This document shows positions 37,876 through 46,442 of a DNA stretch of 64,000 nucleotides, piece after piece. Under the pieces are notes generated by a model. The model was given only the letters and a program-made list of their open reading frames with translations. It did no database searches and had not been told where the DNA came from. A program made the translations under genes and the position numbers. The first letter of the stretch is position 1, and each line of letters opens with the position of its first letter. The DNA comes from Bisporella sp. PMI_857 (taxonomy: Eukaryota > Ascomycota > Leotiomycetes > Helotiales > Helotiaceae), in NCBI GenBank assembly GCA_021307315.1, contig JAJSPD010000011.1:372001-436000 (forward strand), read 5' to 3'.

Positions 37876-38064
37876 TCGAAATTGAGCATAGAACAGTCTG
37901 TACGTGTGTCATTCGACGTAGCAAGGGTCGTAGGCGGAAGTGCTAAGGTTAGGATCCAAATGATAGCGGAGATGAGTCTGAAACGAAAAGGGTGTGTGAG
38001 GGGTCACGTCAGCCACACTCCTGAACAACCACAAAGCTTGGAAAATAATTACATAAGTGAACCA

Positions 38065-38110
38065 AGGTCGGCAGGTCAGGTGGAGGTCCAACTGAGCTCA
38101 GGTGGACCTG
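38065..38110 (+). repeat. Left terminal inverted repeat of the MULE
   Basis: Includes an imperfect palindrome at 38083-38110 (GAGGTCCAACTGAG then CTCAGGTGGACCTG). A further GGTCCAACTGAG copy lies at about 38154. Confidence 0.85.
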
Positions 38111-38396
38111 CACAGACCACATTTCACACTTCAATTTTTTAAAATTTCTTGGCAGGTCCAACTGAGGTATTCTGTAAACGTTTAGTATTTGTTTTTAATA
38201 TATTTGCAAAAAGATTCAGATTCAAAAAAGAAACAAATTTCATAAAATTAATAAAAATGTATAACTTATATGCTAAAAACGCAAAGGACAGTTGAAGACC
38301 AATGCGTAACAGAAGCCTAGCAACGGTTTGTTTATTTTTTGTTTACTTTTTATTTACATTCCTTTTTTTCTGTGACATCGCAGAAAACTCCACTCT

Positions 38397-41300
38397 ATGA
38401 ATTTTTGGACTATTATTACAATGGTTGCTTTTATGCAATTTCTACGCAACTCTGTAGCTTCTACGTTCCGGGAGCTTAGTGTTGATATTCCAAAAGAAGA
38501 ACGGCAATGGAATGATATGCGATACTACAAACATTGTTCTGAAGATCGAGAAAACGCAGTTTCAGAATTTCTTCAAATCGAAAAAAACAAAGACACTTCA
38601 ACGGTAAAAACTGTGTTAAAAATTCATTTCAAAACTTTTTCAAAACCTTTTCAGTGCAGATTTTATGCAGATTTTATGCAGATTATTTTTGTGTTTAAAA
38701 AGTTTTGAAAAGGATTTTAAAACGTTTGGTAAAAGTAGAATATTACTAATATTTCCGCTACAGATCTTTCCGCAAATTACGCCACTTTACTATCTTACAA
38801 CTATAGGAAAACAGTGTTATACTGTTGAAACTATTTATGATGTGCCCGATATTTCTTTATATCCAGACACATCGGAAAACGGAATAGAATATCGCATTAA
38901 TGTAGAAGGCTTTTCACGAAAAGATGTAAAAAATCTTATATCCCGAGTAAGTGTTTTTTAAACGTATAGAAAACGATTTCTTTCCGCTTACTAAATACTT
39001 TTAGCTCCAATACAGCTATACCCAGAAACAATCTTTTCACAAAAAGCTTACTTTTTCTACATTTTTGAATACTCGTGTTATTCGAACAGTATAGAAATGT
39101 TCTAGAGTTAAAATCTGTGCTTACGCTGCTGACTATGTTAAACAATCTTACACTTTTTAGTCAGGTATTGATTTTCAGAAAAAATACGAAGCGACAGATA
39201 TTTCTCAAAGGATTTTTGCTGAAAAGTACATTGAGTATAATAAGCAAAAGCGAATATTAGAGTAATTAATTTCTATGTTTTAGAAAACAAATACTAATAC
39301 AAGCAATAGCGAATACAATTCGATTATGAAACATTTTCGAAACAATGGAACCGGATGCCCGTTTTGGTACAATACGGAAGAAACTAAACAAAAATGCTTT
39401 GGCAAGCCAAAGGTTTTTGCATCTAAAAACTTAGTAAGTATTTTCAAAACTTTTAGAAAACGTTTATATTCTGATTACGATATGCTTAGAATTTGAATGA
39501 CGAGTATAATTATTTTGTAGAATATGAATTTCACAATTCACATACTAAAATCTTGTATTTTTATAAACATATCGATTTTTTACACAAGTCAATCCACTTT
39601 ACTTAAAGGAGCTATTTAATGCTGGATTTGCTCCTTAAATTCAAAAATATTATTAAGTTTTCGGACAAGTATTACGCGTTCTTGATTGTAGTAAAACGTT
39701 AACTTTGTTATGTTTTAAAAATGAATACTAATTGTTTAGGAATACTCCATTTTTCCGGACTACAAAAGCTTTAAAATCGTTCTTGTTCTGTTCAGTTTAA
39801 TCTTTTTATTCCGGGTGATTTAAATGCAACGCTATATATTTTGTTTTCGTCAACTGGTATTCATACACATAATGCTCTACCGCCTCGAAACACTCCGCAA
39901 ATACTTATAGACAGCTTTTTAATAGAACTTAGAAAACTGGTTAAAGCAGAGTTAACAAGCAGTAAGTATATGCTTTTAAAACGTTTTGAAATTATTTTTA
40001 ACATATATAGCTCAAACTCTGCACAGCTTTACTATACGAAATTTTCTTCAACAATTTAGTGTAAAATTGTTGTTTGACACTCACCCGAGTTTTTACAACA
40101 AATCGAAAATACAAGCTTTGATTCGCACCGAAGTATTAAAAAAATATCCTGAAAGAGTTAGTTAAGCAAGTAAATACAAATTACAAACAGTTAGAAATCG
40201 AAAAGCTAATATGTTTTAAGTGTTTGGGCTGAGTACAATTTGCATTATCGACATGTAGAAAATCAACAATATATTTATTCTATGATTAACGACGGAACAA
40301 ATCAGATTATTTGTTGTGCATTTCTTGAACAAGTTCAATATTTGTTACAACAAACAATTGTACGTGTTGACATGTTTTTAAACGGGTGTATAAAGAATGG
40401 AAAGAATTATATTTGCTGATTTTTTGAACGATACCAACAATGTAAGTTAGTCGTTTTAAAAACGTTTTGTTAATATTAACTAATTGCTTTTAGTGCTTAC
40501 TTTCGCTCGGATTTTTATTAATAACGAATTAGCCGAAAATACTTTTATGCTTTTACGATTTTTTTTTCAACAATTAATCAAGCATTGAAAAGCGCCGGCT
40601 AAAGCGAAATCCAATAGTTTTATATTTACGGCACAGAAATTCATGCGATTTTAACAGACATGTATCCGAAACAAGTATGCGGTACATAGTATTCGCTTTT
40701 AAAACGTTTAAAATATATTTAAATACTAATTCAGTTTATAGATAGAGTTTATATTTTAAACTATTGATTTTTGCAGAAAGATTAGCGATAGCAAGTTAAA
40801 CGTACAGTAATATATTGTACAGTTCATTATAAAAGAAGCTTTTGGATTGTGTACGAAATAAAAAATCTCCGAATCAATATGCGAATGCTTTTAGAGATTC
40901 TAACTATAAACTCTAAACATAATATTCTTGCACTGCTAAACAATATTAACAAGCATTCGTAAGTGTTTTTAAAATGTTTTAAAAATATTTTTTTAACAAT
41001 TAAACTATAGCCGGCTATAATTCTTTGACGAAACATAAACGCTAGATTGGATTTTGTCAGCATAAATATTTATTGCTGAAAAGTGATAAAAACGCTTTTT
41101 TACAAACAGGAACACGCACTTCGAATCCGGTTGAAGCTAGTAAAGCTCAAAGTAATCGGCTAGAAATATCAAAAAGCTTTATGGCCGCAATTATTGAGTA
41201 ATATTTTGTTTTTGTTTTTTAAACGTTTACTAACTGTTATTTAGTGAATAAAGCATGATTTAGAACAACTGGCTTTTTGTCGTGATAAACTCATTATTGA

Positions 41301-41690
41301 GCACAATCGACTTACAAAACTCGCAATATTTTAACTCGACTTGATGAGCGAAGAACAAAAATAGTAAAAAAACAGCTATTTATAATTACAAAACATTTAC
41401 TAAACAATTACTTTTAGTTGCGTCTTTGAAAAGAAAACGCTAATTAGAAATTATTTAACAATGACTAATGAAAATATATATCAAAATATTTCGTTGTCAA
41501 ACTCTGTACTAAATGTGGTTAACAGTAGTAGTCGGCTATATGTTAGATTTCAACGGAAACAACAATCGAAATAGCAACTTTAGATTCAGTAAATTTAGAG
41601 CTTAAAAAAAAAAGTTAGAATTGGTTTAACTTCAAATAGAAAAGGAAAAAGAAACACTTCGGCAATTGCGAGGAAATTAACAGATATGTT
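38397..41690 (+). pseudogene. MULE-like DDE transposase, intron-rich and decayed
   Basis: Exonic islands read in order: MVAFMQFLRNSVASTFREL, YDVPDISLYPDTSENGIEYR, YSYTQKQSFHKKLTFSTFLN, CPFWYNTEETKQKCFGKPKV, IHTHNALPPRNTPQILIDSF, QIICCAFLEQVQYLLQQTIV then RVDMF (first Asp, ~40369), LTFARIFINNELAENTFMLL, YGTEIHAILTDMYPKQ (second Asp, ~40660), CTVHYKRSF (~40820), RTSNPVEASKAQSNRLEI (Glu, ~41125) and a charged C-terminal coil ending ~41690. This order (D, A-R-x-F, D, C-x2-H, N-x2-E) is that of MULE transposases. Likely introns: 38947-39004, 39434-39489, 39962-40010, 40442-40493, 40675-40734, 40959-41010, 41198-41244. Stops, several at expected Trp or Gln codons, and frame slips make it inactive. 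Confidence 0.72.
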
Positions 41691-42504
41691 TGTAAAACGT
41701 TTTGGATACATTCTTTTTTCATTTTTATTCTGAATCCGACTCAGGCTGAATAAACTTTTGTAATACATAACAATCTGATTTTTCCCAGTTTTTACATGTA
41801 TTAGAAAGCATTTGCGATCTGTAAAAAATAAGTGAGTTTAATATATATAAAAATAGATATATTTACTTTGAGAATTGCAATTGTTACACTTTTCAGACTT
41901 TTTTAATCCAATAAATGTACGCATTTTAAAAAGATTCAGCTGTTATTATGTTAATTAATTGTACTAAATAACATTAAATAATATGTACTTTTTTATTGTA
42001 TATCGGAACTTCGAACTTATCTGGAACTTTTAAAATGTCATTGCTAACTGAAGAACTTGCGTTGTTTAAACGAGATTTTTTCGAAGCTTAAATTTATTAG
42101 AAACGTTTTAAGAATAATAAAAAAACATACAGGAGACAATTGATTATCGTTATTATTATATCGAGCAGCTTTCTGCAATATACGTCAATAAACACAATAA
42201 TATAATATAAAATACAGTTATGCGTACCGGACTTTGATGAAAAAGTAAAGAAAAAGTTGGATTAAGTAGTAATGTATTAGTGGAAAAAGAAGTCTGAAAA
42301 AGTAAGTATACTATTTACAGCATAGTTAAAAAAATGCTTACAGAACGATTAGAAAGTGTTTCGGTATTCTTTATTTCACTTTCTACTGTCTATGTTTGAA
42401 GTATTTCTTCAGCAAAAGCTAAATCAACTTTAGGCTGTTCAGATGAAATTGAAAACGAAAAAAGTAAATTAAGCAATAAAAATCAATTGGTATATTTGTA
42501 GATC

Positions 42505-42960
42505 TTGAAAACGAAAAAGCCGGAATAAAATCGACTGTAGTTGAAGTTGCTGAATAAGAAGAAGTCGGAACAGGATCAACTGTAGTTGAAGTTGCTGAAT
42601 AAGAAAAAGTCGGAACAGGATCAACTGTAGTTGAAGTTGCTAAATGAAAAGAAGCCGGAACAGAAGCGATTGTAGTTGAAGTTGCTGAATGAAAAGAAGT
42701 CGGAACAGAAGCGATTGTAGTTGAAGTTGCTGAACAAGAAGAAGCCGGAACAGAATCAACTGTAGTTGAAGTTGCTAAATAAGAAAAAGCCGGAACAGAA
42801 GCGATTGTAGTTGAAGTTGCTGAATGAAAAGAAGTCGGAACAGAAGCGATTGTAGTTGAAGTTGCTGAACAAGAAGAAGCCGGAACAGGATCAACTGTAG
42901 CTAAAGTTGCTAAATAAGAAAAAGCCGGAACAGAAGCGATTGTAGTTAAGTCAAAAAGTA
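42505..42960 (-). repeat. Tandem 45-bp repeats coding a Ser/Thr/Pro-rich tract
   Basis: About ten units of exactly 45 bp (15 codons) on the minus strand, e.g. VPTSFHSATSTTIAS, VPASSCSATSTTIAS, VPAFSYLATSTTVDS. The frame is open across the whole array and beyond to about 42350 but has no ATG, as expected for an internal exon. Confidence 0.85.
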
Positions 42961-43035
42961 AAGAAACGTTTGTAGAAATAAAATTGGTAGTTGTTTCCTA
43001 ATCGTTTGATAAATAAACATAAAACAAATTTAATT

Positions 43036-43291
43036 TGTCACGGCCCTGGCCCTATCTCGAGCTTGGCCCCTGCTGCCACAGGGCTTGGCATCCCAGAGCT
43101 TGGCGACCAATGCTACAGGGCTCGCTTACACTGGCCCCTGGCCAGCCTCCTGTATATAAAGCACTGCTCTCCTTCCCTTCTTCTGCCTGTAGCTTGTTCT
43201 CTTAGTTATAACAATTGATAGTTGTTCACACCTTTGAGTCCTTCTACCTAGATCTACGGATCGAGATCCCTGTTCGGCTTGAGTTGTTACA
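43036..43291 (+). mobile_element. Solo LTR, family A, inside the MULE
   Basis: TGTCACGGCCCTGGCCC...GAGTTGTTACA, 256 bp, flanked by TAATT at 43031-43035 and 43292-43296. Contains TATATAAAG, a plausible TATA box of the element. Confidence 0.95.
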
Positions 43292-43667
43292 TAATTCAGG
43301 ATTATTACACTAGAAATTTGGTTTTCAACAGAGTTGAAATGAGCTTGAGCAGCAATTTTGTGAGCCTATTAAACTTTAGTTAAATTAGAAATTTAATAAA
43401 AGAAATATGTTGTACTATAGTAGCTTTGCCCTTTTTAGAATGAACAATAACTTCTGGGTGTTGTTGACGAATATGAAGTAAAAGTGCAGGTGTACGAAAA
43501 AACCGTTGCTATACAATATTAATACATAAACCATAAAACAATATATTAAAAACAACTTGCTTTATAAAGACAAAGAATATTTTCTGTCACAACACGGCAA
43601 AATAAATCGCCAACATAAACTTTAATACAAGTAGTTTGTGAACAATTAGGATGCTATTAAAAGTTAT

Positions 43668-43858
43668 TGTCGGATCACTCTACCCGTGGCAACACCACGT
43701 AATTGCTACGCAGTTGCCTGTTGGGTTGAATGTGATCTGATTGTTGAAGGATGAATCAAGGGATGAGGATATGCCTCATCCCTAAGTCATGTGACGAAGT
43801 CACATGACCCATCCTCCATTCAGTAACTAATCTATACTGGTAAATATTGATACAAACA
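43668..43858 (-). mobile_element. Solo LTR, family F, inside the MULE
   Basis: TGTCGGATCACTCTACC...GATACAAACA, 191 bp, flanked by GTTAT at 43663-43667 and 43859-43863. The GGATCACTCTA start resembles family C (GGATCACTCTAATACGG), so the two may be related. Confidence 0.92.
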
Positions 43859-43863
43859 GTTAT

Positions 43864-44488
43864 ATTGTAAACGTTTTCTAAATAGATAACAATAGACATA
43901 CATCTGTTTCAAGACTGAATAAAAAACAGTTTTCAGGTCGTGTACTATATTTGAGTGGGTAAGTGTTTGCCATAATAATCAAATATAAGAAAATATTTTT
44001 GAAAGCAGAAGCGAAAATTGGTTTAGAATTGTATTTGTAAAAGTTTTCAAAAGTAGGCGCTACTAAGCGAACAAATCAAATACTTTCAAATATAACGAAG
44101 CAATTAGTAAAGATGTAAACGTTTACAAAACGTATACAAACTGATATGAAAACGTTTAGAAAATACTTTATAGTATATTAAGCTATGCATAAAACTATAA
44201 ACGTTTAAAAAACGTTTTCAAAATAGTTTAAAAACAATAAAAACTTATAAAGCTTTAATTAAACAAAGCATTGTATTTCAATTTGAAAAACAGACACAAG
44301 TGTAAAAATATTATTTGAAAGTTTAGTATTTGTAATAAAAGTTGATTCGTTTAACTTCTGTAAAGTAAACAATCGAAACGTTTTAAAAACGAATATAAAT
44401 CAAAAGCTTAACGCTTGAACGCTCGCTGTACTATGCTTGCTTTCTATCTGAACGATTGCAAAACGATTGCAAAACGAACAAGAATTAA
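43864..44488. other. AT-rich noncoding part of the MULE with AAACGTTT motifs
   Basis: No coding frame. AACGTTT-type motifs recur at about 43870, 44118, 44148, 44200, 44211 and 44378, with related CAAAACGATTG units near 44455. It could hold the promoters or transposase-binding sites of the element. Confidence 0.5.
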
Positions 44489-45643
44489 CTATTGAATATT
44501 ATCCAAACCATTATCATCGTTATTATCATCAACACCATTAGCATTATTATTATTGCTGCCGGGCTGCTTGAAAAGAAGAAAAACTTGGCAACCATTTTCA
44601 TTAGTCCAGTTCTTAGAATTAACATCAGGGCACTCTAGAAACGATTAGAAAACGATTATGAAATGGTTAAAAAGTACTTACTGGAGTTTTTGCGAGTTTT
44701 GCAAACCGCACACTTTGTTTTTCCTTGTAATTTAAATTAGCGGCGCATAGCAGCGGCATTAGGCAATTTAGTCTGAAAACGTTTAGAAAACGAATATAGA
44801 ATATATAGAGTTTAATTATAAATACCTTTTTAACAATTGGAACAACGCGTTTGGATAAAGAAGCGACGGATTGTTGAACAAGTTAAGCTTAAACGATTAG
44901 AAAACGAATAGAAAACGGAAAAGCAATAATGTTTATTACCTGGGTAGCAGCAGCTACTTGAGTTTTGTGCTAACGAAGGTTTTTGGTAGCTTGAAATCTG
45001 CCCTATAAACGTTTTAGAAACGAATATAAAATATTTGAAAATCCAAAGATAACTAACTTTAGTAGGAGTTAAAGCGAATTCGGCATTGGCACGGATATTC
45101 TCAAGCTGGAAAACAATTAGAAAACGTTTAGAAATTGAGCGTTATACAGAAAACTAACCTTCGTAATATGAGCGAGAACAGCTTTCTGGCAACGAGCAAA
45201 TTCAACTTGAGCAGTTGCTTTAGATTGCTAAAACGTTTAGAAAACGAACTTAAAACGGTTGGGAATTAATACTTGACTTGCGGGTCCTTTCTTTCCTTCA
45301 TTAAATGTAACAAAAGGGTGTTGCTTGCGGATATGCTCGCGCAAAGCGTTCGTGGTTTGATATTTATTCTAAAAACGATTAGAAAACAAATAGCAAAGAA
45401 TTATATAACAATTAATATACGTACGTTATTGGCACACAGATCACCGTCGACATGACCGACGCGGCAAAAAGCTTCTCCAGCGGGAATATTAATACGGCCC
45501 TAAACGTTTAGAAAACAATTAAAAATCGGTTGCAAAGTACTTACAGCTCCATCAGTAGCAAACGGAACACAACCATCTGGGCGCTTGTTATACTTCAGAT
45601 AGGTCGTCGCCAACTCACTATTAGTCATGGAAATCGATGCCAT
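44489..45643 (-). CDS. Accessory zinc-finger-like protein of the MULE, nine exons
   Basis: Nine short exons: 45643-45545, 45499-45425, 45368-45273, 45227-45159, 45105-45058, 45002-44940, 44887-44826, 44772-44682, 44634-44489. Eight introns of 45-56 nt share a near-identical 3' part. The first five exons join cleanly in frame. Product: MASISMTNSE..., then FCRVGHVDGDLCANN...LREHIRKQH, a Cys2-His2-like finger, a Gln/Ala-rich coil, CAVCKTRKN...CPDV (second Cys cluster) and an Asn/Asp-rich tail. Exon 6 has one TAG (Gln expected), the exon 6/7 junction needs one extra base, and exon 8 has a stop after MRR, so the copy is slightly damaged. Function unknown; DNA or transposase binding is a guess from the Cys/His pattern and location. 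Confidence 0.7.
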
Positions 45644-46166
45644 ATTGTTTGTAGATCGCTTTCTAAACGTTTCAAGTCCTGTTAGTCTTTCTTCAAAAAA
45701 TACAGGTCAAAACGTTTTCAAAACAAATAGAAAAAAGATGTTTCAAAACGTTTAGAAAACAAATAAATCCTAACCTGGTATTTTGGTGTTGTTGTAAAGA
45801 GAAAGAATAAAGGTCAGGTAAAGGTTTTAAAAACGTTTAGCCCCGCTTTTCACTAGTAGCATTTTAAGCGAGCCTTGGCACCCTATTTTTTTTTATTTTT
45901 CGCGTCCACAAACATTACTCACTTGTTTAGTAATCGTTTTGTAAACGTTTTGAGCTTAATTTAATAATTGTTTGCAAAAAATTTTTATTTGTTGTTTTAA
46001 TAGATAACAAATGGTTTATTTACTTTACTTTTCACTTGTTTCTACTATTTGCTTTTTAACTCGTGCTGATATAAATTAAAAAATTTTGTTTAAAATCTTG
46101 AAAATTACTAGTATTCCTTTTGTAAACGTTTACGTGAAGGTCCAACTGAGCTTTTACGCTAATTTA

Positions 46167-46212
46167 GAGGTCCAACTGAGCTCAGTTGGACCTCCACCCC
46201 ACCTAACGTCTC
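46167..46212 (-). repeat. Right terminal inverted repeat of the MULE, with perfect palindrome
   Basis: 46167-46194 is a 28-bp perfect palindrome (GAGGTCCAACTGAG joined to its complement). A further GGTCCAACTGAG copy lies at about 46138. Confidence 0.87.
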
Positions 46213-46442
46213 AGTGAACCATAACCCCACCTTCAATTGCGCTGAGAATGCTACGAACATTATTGTATCCGATTCTATAATATCACTCCTGCCTCCAAAA
46301 AATCAAATCCAAACTAAAGGAAAAAGAGAAATGATACTTATTCTTTCGTGCAACAGTCTCATATCATCTTCGCAACTGGTGCCCTCCATGGCACTGACAC
46401 ATCAATTGTCCGTGCCACTTCTGGCTCTAGTTCATCTACCTC

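Follow-up and report, generated by a model that had tools for sequence, protein, structure and literature searches.

Tandem arrays of an 11-bp unit in the introns and spacers of a Mutator-like fungal transposon: possible sites of self-recognition

Why should the eight predicted introns of one transposon gene end almost alike, and why should the same short palindrome recur in the non-coding DNA around them? The question is raised by a decayed DNA transposon with two genes (positions 38065-46212) in the genome of Bisporella sp. PMI_857, lying within the 64,000-nt stretch that was analysed (hereafter the window). An earlier note on this DNA called it a MULE, and by its ends the element is Mutator-like: a target-site duplication of the roughly 9 bp typical of MULEs, AGTGAACCA, matches exactly between 38056-38064 on the left and 46213-46221 on the right (hAT elements make duplications of 8 bp, against these 9), and terminal inverted repeats (TIRs) occupy 38065-38113 (plus strand, with the palindromic core AGGTCCAACTGAGCTCAG) and 46167-46212 (minus strand). 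The TIR arms of the window copy are 37 bp long and 92% complementary, and TIRs are common to its relatives. The label thus holds for the ends, but no MULE transposase domain was detectable in the damaged coding region by profile scans of the element: PF10551 matched neither the element, nor its pieces, nor the less mutated C3 copy (which stops at a contig edge, before the remainder of the plus-strand gene), the gene being broken and split by introns. A transposase search found no relatives at E<=1e-3.

The plus-strand gene, probably the transposase (38376-41500, approximate limits), is broken by C>T/G>A mutations and has at least nine candidate introns; exon pieces of it recur in copies C3 and C180, and no domain was found in it. 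The minus-strand gene (44489-45643) is zinc-finger-like: its product gave a zf-BED match below the cut-off (E 0.47 and 0.078; 11 and 13.5 bits vs 20.6). A database search with this product returned only itself, there was no PDB match, and a structure model was useless (pLDDT 42.7). The first five of its eight candidate introns are also present in a deposited model (P0001, 139 aa, Bisporella sp. PMI_857, B0O99DRAFT_591761), which the spliced translation matches exactly until a stop codon interrupts exon 6; introns 6-8 lie downstream of that stop and are predictions only.

The eight minus-strand introns measure 45, 56, 45, 53, 55, 52, 53 and 47 nt, and their 3' ends, which the earlier note had listed as near-alike, agreed with that list letter for letter: TTTTCTAAACGTTTAG in intron 1 (45500-45544), TTTTCTAATCGTTTTTAG in intron 2 (45369-45424), TTTTCTAAACGTTTTAG in intron 3 (45228-45272), TTTTCTAATTGTTTTCCAG in intron 4 (45106-45158), TTTCTAAAACGTTTATAG in intron 5 (45003-45057, whose acceptor may lie 5 nt further on), TTTTCTAATCGTTTAAG in intron 6 (44888-44939, with three 11-bp steps), TTTTCTAAACGTTTTCAG in intron 7 (44773-44825) and TTTTCTAATCGTTTCTAG in intron 8 (44635-44681). 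Aligned on CTAA, which stands shortly upstream of the AG in every one of them, the 16-nt blocks at the 3' end have a mean pairwise identity of 0.84, compared with 0.60 in shuffles that kept CTAA fixed (maximum 0.68 of 2000). The 5' halves differ, as had also been noticed: in the 16 nt that follow the donor hexamer, identity is 0.37. The octamer AAACGTTT is found in five of the eight introns, and the remaining three have AATCGTTT at the equivalent place. CTAAWCG occurs eight times in these introns (seven in sense) and GTAAWCG never; the respective counts are 7 and 9 outside introns and 0 and 1 in the plus-strand introns, a contrast in keeping with co-option of the unit for splicing.

The similarity extends well beyond the intron ends. 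The claim that the octamer recurs in the element and is rare elsewhere was borne out by the inside/outside count with a shuffled control that the note had proposed: the element has 27 copies of AAACGTTT, where dinucleotide shuffles of it average 1.06 (maximum 4 of 200), and the remaining 56 kb of the window have a single one; for AACGTT the two counts are 28 and 12. Density per kb is 12.3 in the minus-strand introns, 11.6 in the 5' flank of that gene (45644-46160, also the right subterminal region, with six octamers and an 11-bp array at 45925-45952) and 5.6 between the genes; the 749 exon bases of the minus-strand gene contain none. Longer forms are largely confined to the family: five of the six places with TTTTCTAAWCGTTTNNAG in the genome lie within it, as do 29 of 39 places matching GTTTTCTAAACGTTTAG within 2 mismatches (a reversed-pattern control gave 19 genome-wide) and 15 of 34 places with a 20-bp palindrome, the other 19 being close to the control of 16. 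Those copies of the element that allow a comparison have the motif too.

The octamer is one phase of a longer unit, approximately AAAACG[A/T]TTAN, 11 bp long and present in 2-3 tandem copies, and adjoining copies form the palindrome seen as AAACGTTT. The unit is found in nearly all predicted introns and in much spacer DNA, and is missing from those coding parts that can be checked. Period 11 accounts for 15 of the 17 tandem-repeat rows of the element, compared with 1 of 45 in the host part of the window, 8 of 84 in AT-richer loci outside the family and a mean of 0.64 rows (maximum 2 in 50 runs) in shuffled elements. Identity at lag 11 is 0.51 in the minus-strand introns and 0.52 in the plus-strand introns, compared with 0.22 in the minus-strand exons and about 0.26 in host DNA. 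Of 14 arrays, nine are in introns, five outside genes (among them 44117-44140, 44199-44234 and 44451-44477 in the non-coding DNA 3' of the minus-strand gene, 43859-44488) and none in minus-gene exons, although array-free exons may be just a consequence of coding. CG-N9-CG pairs number 17 in 43859-46160 vs 3.6 expected from shuffles (maximum 10 of 100), and show a weak excess in 38110-42418 (8 vs 4.2, shuffle maximum 11); 6 of the 31 pairs in the whole element belong to an unrelated 45-bp repeat. Lag 11 is not preferred in the spacer 42970-43035/43292-43667 (0.331, z 1.2), lags 10 and 11 are alike in 43859-44488, and 6 of the 17 introns fail p<0.05 for the 11-bp step. A relative with shared TIRs but a mostly unalignable interior, C103, also carries 11-bp arrays; among 12 other TIR-bearing places, most of them short remnants in host DNA, period-11 rows occur only in C103 and in a flank of C228.

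The plus-strand candidate introns carry the same motif mostly in other positions. Intron 1 (38604-38763) has three 11-bp arrays (38627-38653, 38655-38684, 38694-38722) and AAACGTTT, and intron 2 (38947-39004) has AAACGTAT in its donor half, apart from an ACTAAA branch site. Intron 3 (39434-39489) holds an array at 39446-39466 and the octamer, which also occurs in the donor half of intron 4 (39962-40010) and together with CG-N9-CG in introns 5 (40442-40493) and 6 (40675-40741). Intron 7 (40959-41010) contains an 11-bp array with AAAATGTTTT, intron 8 (41198-41244) the octamer followed by a CTAAC branch site, and intron 9 (41364-41417), spotted only once its array had been seen, an array at 41384-41412. 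An ACTAA branch site lies near the acceptor in six of the nine, and 6 of the 7 octamers of 38110-41500 sit inside candidate plus introns. The related core that the note had placed near the donor of the plus-strand introns is indeed in the donor half of introns 2-7, but about the middle of intron 8 and in the acceptor half of intron 1.

What could the arrays be for? The proposal examined here is that a two-gene transposon spread an 11-bp unit, in short tandem arrays, over much of its non-coding DNA, and that these arrays would be family-specific protein-binding sites working like the VANC targets of VANDAL elements, a reading to which an even chance is given. The reader of the arrays would probably be encoded by the element, the likeliest candidates being the zinc-finger-like minus-strand product and the transposase. 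With a step of 11 bp, neighbouring sites would face almost the same side of the helix. The arrays would let the protein recognise its own family along the full length of the element, beyond marking the ends for cutting, and this recognition might sustain expression of the element or protect it from silencing, the role that VANC has in VANDAL elements. In the minus-strand gene CTAA, a T-run and TTAG all lie inside the unit, so that the introns there would draw on it for both branch site and acceptor; their ends could then be nearly identical without intron copying, because the unit supplies both of these presumed signals. Of the two readings offered in the earlier note, that of a repeated, putative binding motif placed in DNA where no protein is affected fits better than intron multiplication, and the 11-bp step sharpens it.

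VANDAL21/Hiun and VANDAL6, Arabidopsis MULEs with VANC anti-silencing proteins, are described as having an extra gene and a short family-specific motif in introns, intergenic and terminal DNA (PMC5735166, PMC10398659). VANC21 is reported to bind a 9-base motif that VANDAL21 carries in introns and in intergenic and terminal non-coding DNA, and the targets of VANC are often tandem repeats (PMC5735166). The Bisporella element likewise repeats a short family-specific motif in its non-coding DNA, introns included, and the motif has grown as tandem repeats (the 15 rows at period 11). It differs in its host, a fungus and not a plant, and in its palindromic, CpG-centred unit, which has an 11-bp step and doubles as an intron 3' end; Pfam scans saw no VANC-like domain. 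Closer in its host is Mutyl, a two-gene MULE of another ascomycete, Yarrowia lipolytica, likened here by description only: it has 9-10 bp target-site duplications, TIRs, a listed C2H2 finger and, as its second gene, MutB, to which a DNA-binding role is ascribed and whose orientation is given inconsistently (same in the introduction, antisense in a table), and no repeated intronic motif appears in the excerpted account (PMC6446971). Should the arrays prove to be read by a protein of the element, plants would not be alone in having transposons with sequence-specific self-recognition, and a fungus with RIP-like mutation would be a system for asking whether such tags counter silencing. For such questions the 11-bp step offers a direct and cheap test handle. 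A bolder and rather doubtful extension is an independent fungal, VANC-like self-recognition code, in which a helically phased 11-bp tag, present in almost all introns and over much of the spacers and read by the element's own zinc-finger protein, is also the branch site and acceptor of the possible reader gene, binding-site growth and splicing having co-evolved. The core C and G of the tag form a CpG, the single context largely spared by the RIP-like mutation of this genome, so the tag would also resist the host's mutational defence.

Other processes could produce repeated motifs of this kind. Neutral 11-bp tandem duplication, a quirk of replication or repair whose products survive only outside coding DNA and of which AAACGTTT would be the commonest seed, is possible though unlikely. 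It would account for short arrays (2-3 units) that avoid minus-gene exons, and for arrays of other sequence with an equal step, TGCAGATTTTA and TTTGTTTACTT (the former, at 38655-38684, is at least one perfect array without the motif). Yet it predicts a few clusters, whereas the related CG-centred unit occurs in 8 of 8 minus-strand introns and the strict form in 6 of 9 plus-strand introns and both flanks; and since AT-richer DNA elsewhere in the genome shows no preference for period 11, the process is not a host-wide one. Somewhat less probable are subterminal repeats of the type found in hAT elements (Hermes, Ac), which would gather transposase for end cutting. Octamers do occur close to both termini, and also close to the TIRs of three relatives (C103, C226 and C258), and Hermes, as described, has many short sites, a quasi-palindromic pair, an AT-rich neighbour and a BED-type finger as reader, BED fingers being known to recognise short repeats at the ends of transposons (PMC10368747). 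However, the Hermes sites are described for the transposon ends (PMC10368747), and here they are also found in the centre and in the introns of the element, with no concentration at the ends. Moreover, a short derivative of 364 bp (C209) has one site and two 64-bp TIR-to-TIR remnants (C228 and C281) have none; a scripted search found no target-site duplication at these three, and only C281 has by eye a near-exact 9-bp flanking repeat (8/9), so that the mobility of these derivatives themselves is putative.

The other reading in the note, that the minus-strand introns multiplied from a single source intron in the manner of introners, found no support on comparison and is very unlikely. As in introners, several introns share sequence (PMC9860276); mean identity over the 16 nt at the 3' end is 84%, and seven of the eight introns are in phase 0 on the first splice, though that splice contains a stop. 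But the likeness is one-ended, confined to the 3' third, whereas the published search accepts only introns that are alike near both borders (PMC9860276); the unit also occurs outside introns, and in the plus-strand introns mostly elsewhere than at the 3' end. Nor is there a copying signature: among copies of this one genome no intron is missing where a copy spans it (8/8 in C155 and C262, 4/4 in the C59 part), and direct repeats at the borders are at chance (longest shared stretch, mean 4.0 vs 3.96), although target duplications are not required in ascomycete introners and their absence excludes nothing (PMC9860276). The element also shows how intron ends can become nearly identical with no copying: a putative binding motif may by chance already have the form of a 3' splice site. 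Equally improbable is a strict branch-site and acceptor consensus, made of ordinary splicing signals and brought by horizontal transfer from an AT-rich donor genome, with ends like TTTTCTAAACGTTTNAG: CTAA just before AG in all minus-strand introns would suit it, but the plus-strand candidate introns have no CGTTT within their last 20 nt, and the unit is equally frequent in the 5' flank. An artefact of RIP, in which CpG-sparing C>T mutation leaves CG islands in a sea of A/T and AAACGTTT is the remainder, can be given hardly any credence. C>T change in the copies does spare CpG (6/181, 18/160 and 8/100 at CG in C155, C262 and C59, against 156/565, 195/474 and 109/302 in other contexts). However, the octamer makes up 27 of 59 A/T-flanked CGs in the element vs 4 of 74 in non-family stretches below 38% GC (Fisher p 5e-8), dinucleotide shuffles yield only about one, and at the minus-strand gene the window copy is less mutated than the three compared copies, with the motif well visible in it.

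The element at 38065-46212 contains 27 copies of the palindromic octamer AAACGTTT against 1.06 expected from a shuffled control, so that the concentration noticed by eye in the earlier note is borne out. Alignment of the element's 28 AACGTT sites (both strands) gives a consensus of roughly AWTYRTTTTSWAAACGTTTWSAAAAYRAWT, in which CG or its mutated forms stand 11 bp apart, and the commonest array unit is AAAACG[A/T]TTAN, although the 11-bp step also occurs without the motif, in at least one array (TGCAGATTTTA). CG pairs at a lag of 11 number 17 in 43859-46160 (3.6 in shuffles, maximum 10 in 100) and 31 in the whole element minus its nested inserts (8.3, maximum 14), 6 of the 31 falling in an unrelated 45-bp repeat; only a weak excess is seen in 38110-42418 (8, with 4.2 in shuffles, maximum 11). 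Tandem Repeats Finder assigns period 11 to 15 of 17 rows in the element (15 of 19 with the nested inserts), compared with a mean of 0.64 and at most 2 in any of 50 runs on the shuffled element, 1 of 45 in the host window, 4 of 39 at other loci, and 8 of 84 at AT-richer non-family loci (mean GC 0.35), a control that includes stretches of contigs C128, C170, C29, C32 and C144, the last of which does not match the element at E<=1e-3. The copies on contigs C155 and C262 give 9/18 and 8/15.

At lag 11 the minus-strand introns reach an identity of 0.51 and the plus-strand ones 0.52, higher in each case than at any other lag, and lag 22 comes next; the value is 0.39 (again the top lag) in the right subterminal part, 0.36 in 43859-44488, where lag 10 is equal, and 0.33 with no lag preference in the spacer 42970-43035/43292-43667. 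Minus-strand exons give 0.22, host DNA about 0.26. Taken singly, 6 of 8 minus-strand introns and 5 of 9 plus-strand introns show the 11-bp step at p<0.05 relative to shuffles, and none of nine minus-strand exon segments does. Of 14 non-overlapping arrays, nine lie in introns and five outside genes.

The eight predicted introns of the minus-strand gene (44489-45643) and their ends are as first described, and introns 1-5 are part of the deposited model, since the 139-aa protein B0O99DRAFT_591761 of Bisporella sp. PMI_857 equals the spliced translation (its predicted structure was too poor a model for a structure search). The near-alike 3' ends amount to a 16-nt block of 84% mean identity, and the 5' halves do differ, the stretch after the donor being only 37% identical. 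The half-site takes the form CTAAWCG eight times in these introns and GTAAWCG never, against 7 and 9 outside introns, which suggests that the branch-site variant is favoured where splicing needs it; the motif itself is probably present there for some reason other than splicing. In the plus-strand gene (38376-41500), GT..AG borders picked by eye define nine candidate introns, the ninth recognised only once its array had been noticed. The strict octamer is found in six of them and a loose form in all nine, yet the latter also occurs in 2 of 9 minus-strand exon segments. The proposed position of the core near the donor mostly holds: it lies in the donor half in introns 2-7, near the middle in intron 8 and in the acceptor half in intron 1. 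An ACTAA branch-site-like sequence stands near the acceptor in six of the nine, and in intron 9 ACTAA lies inside the 11-bp array.

The motif and the alike introns can be read in several ways. Multiplication from one source, as by introners, is disfavoured: the likeness is one-sided, border repeats are absent, and a comparison of the copies found no polymorphism in intron presence or absence. An inherited splice consensus is disfavoured because the plus-strand candidate introns end otherwise. A third possibility is mutational: C>T and G>A make up 162/182, 213/218 and 117/130 of the substitutions relative to the window in the copies on C155, C262 and C59, a pattern of RIP-like mutation. It spares CpG (3-11% of CG changed against 28-41% of other cytosines); between 43859-46212 and these three copies, CA, CT and CC are mutated about equally (0.22-0.42) and CG at 0.03-0.11. 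According to the RIPCAL paper, RIP commonly prefers CpA, and in some fungi CpG (PMC2621366). Such sparing leaves CG in A/T surroundings, but AT-rich controls disfavour an artefact of this kind: the octamer accounts for 27 of 59 A/T-flanked CGs in the element and for 4 of 74 in non-family stretches below 38% GC.

A motif used throughout the host is likewise unsupported in genome scans. TTTTCTAAWCGTTTNNAG has six sites genome-wide, five in the element's family and one on contig C133. With up to 2 mismatches allowed, GTTTTCTAAACGTTTAG is matched at 39 places and its reversed control at 19; by manual count, 29 of the 39 belong to the family. For the 20-bp palindrome, with one mismatch allowed, there are 34 places: 15 are in the family, and the other 19 are close in number to the control of 16. 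Four stretches of 1.4-2.0 kb outside the family that contain the palindrome in full or nearly so (C128, C170, C29, C32) hold one or two octamers each and, together, one period-11 row of other sequence.

Sites that are largely family-limited, palindromic, phased and non-coding fit protein binding. We give about an even chance to the arrays being family-specific protein-binding arrays, the full reading by analogy with VANC anti-silencing proteins being part of this. The close precedent is VANC21, whose 9-base motif occupies non-coding DNA of VANDAL21 in introns, between genes and at the termini; the targets of VANC proteins are often tandemly repeated (PMC5735166). In Hermes, BED fingers act on subterminal repeats, whereas the sites of this element are not confined to its ends (PMC10368747). 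The minus-strand product is the candidate reader solely through analogy with MutB of Mutyl (PMC6446971) and a weak finger match. In the open-licence literature we found no description of a fungal transposon with an 11-bp repeat in its introns, and among the matches listed there nothing described fungal VANC-like anti-silencing.

The element lies within contig C13 (1,056,589 bp; genome 55.6 Mb). It has 31.6% GC against 46-48% in its flanks, is delimited by TIRs with a palindromic core, and has AGTGAACCA (9 bp) duplicated exactly on its two sides. Neither gene is intact in this copy; the plus-strand product, which has no homologues at E<=1e-3, may resemble transposases of other fungi. A nested repeat of about 256 bp (43036-43291), starting TGTCACGG and ending TTACA, interrupts the element; it looks like a solo LTR and recurs, in full or in part, at 40 or more further places in the genome. 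A second nested insertion of about 190 bp (43668-43858) has related pieces on C234 and C258, and the C155 copy carries neither. The 45-bp tandem repeat (42506-42951, about 10 copies), unrelated to the 11-bp motif, has a repetitive 192-aa ORF on its minus strand (42419-42997).

Among the copies, that on C155 is cut by the contig end, inside the 45-bp repeat; C262 keeps the right 1.85 kb, C59 the right 1.15 kb with an internal deletion, and C3 and C180 left parts, C3 being less mutated than the window copy in the left half. A relative on C103 shares the left end over 137 bp, at 91%, and matches most of the remainder at only 58-64%, and it has 11-bp arrays; of 12 TIR-bearing places scanned in addition to the copies, C103 and one flank at C228 are the only ones with period-11 arrays. 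A stretch of about 22 nt flanking the C155 copy (L012, ~2640-2662) recurs on C103 (L024, ~471-492) where the element is absent, so this copy may sit in another repeat, judging from one flank only. On C180 (11265-12181, L051) the left end equals the window exactly for its first 200 bp, and thereafter the sequence is C>T/G>A mutated. At C133:3335-3375 (L016), about 37 nt resemble, by eye, the junction of intron 3 and exon 4 of the minus-strand gene, in AT-rich surroundings otherwise without match to the element. Two 64-bp palindromic remnants, at C228:52243 and C281:108995 (L039, L048), consist of the left TIR fused to the right TIR, and the one on C281 is flanked by the repeat ATGTGTTGC/ATGTGGTGC, matching by eye at 8 of 9 positions.
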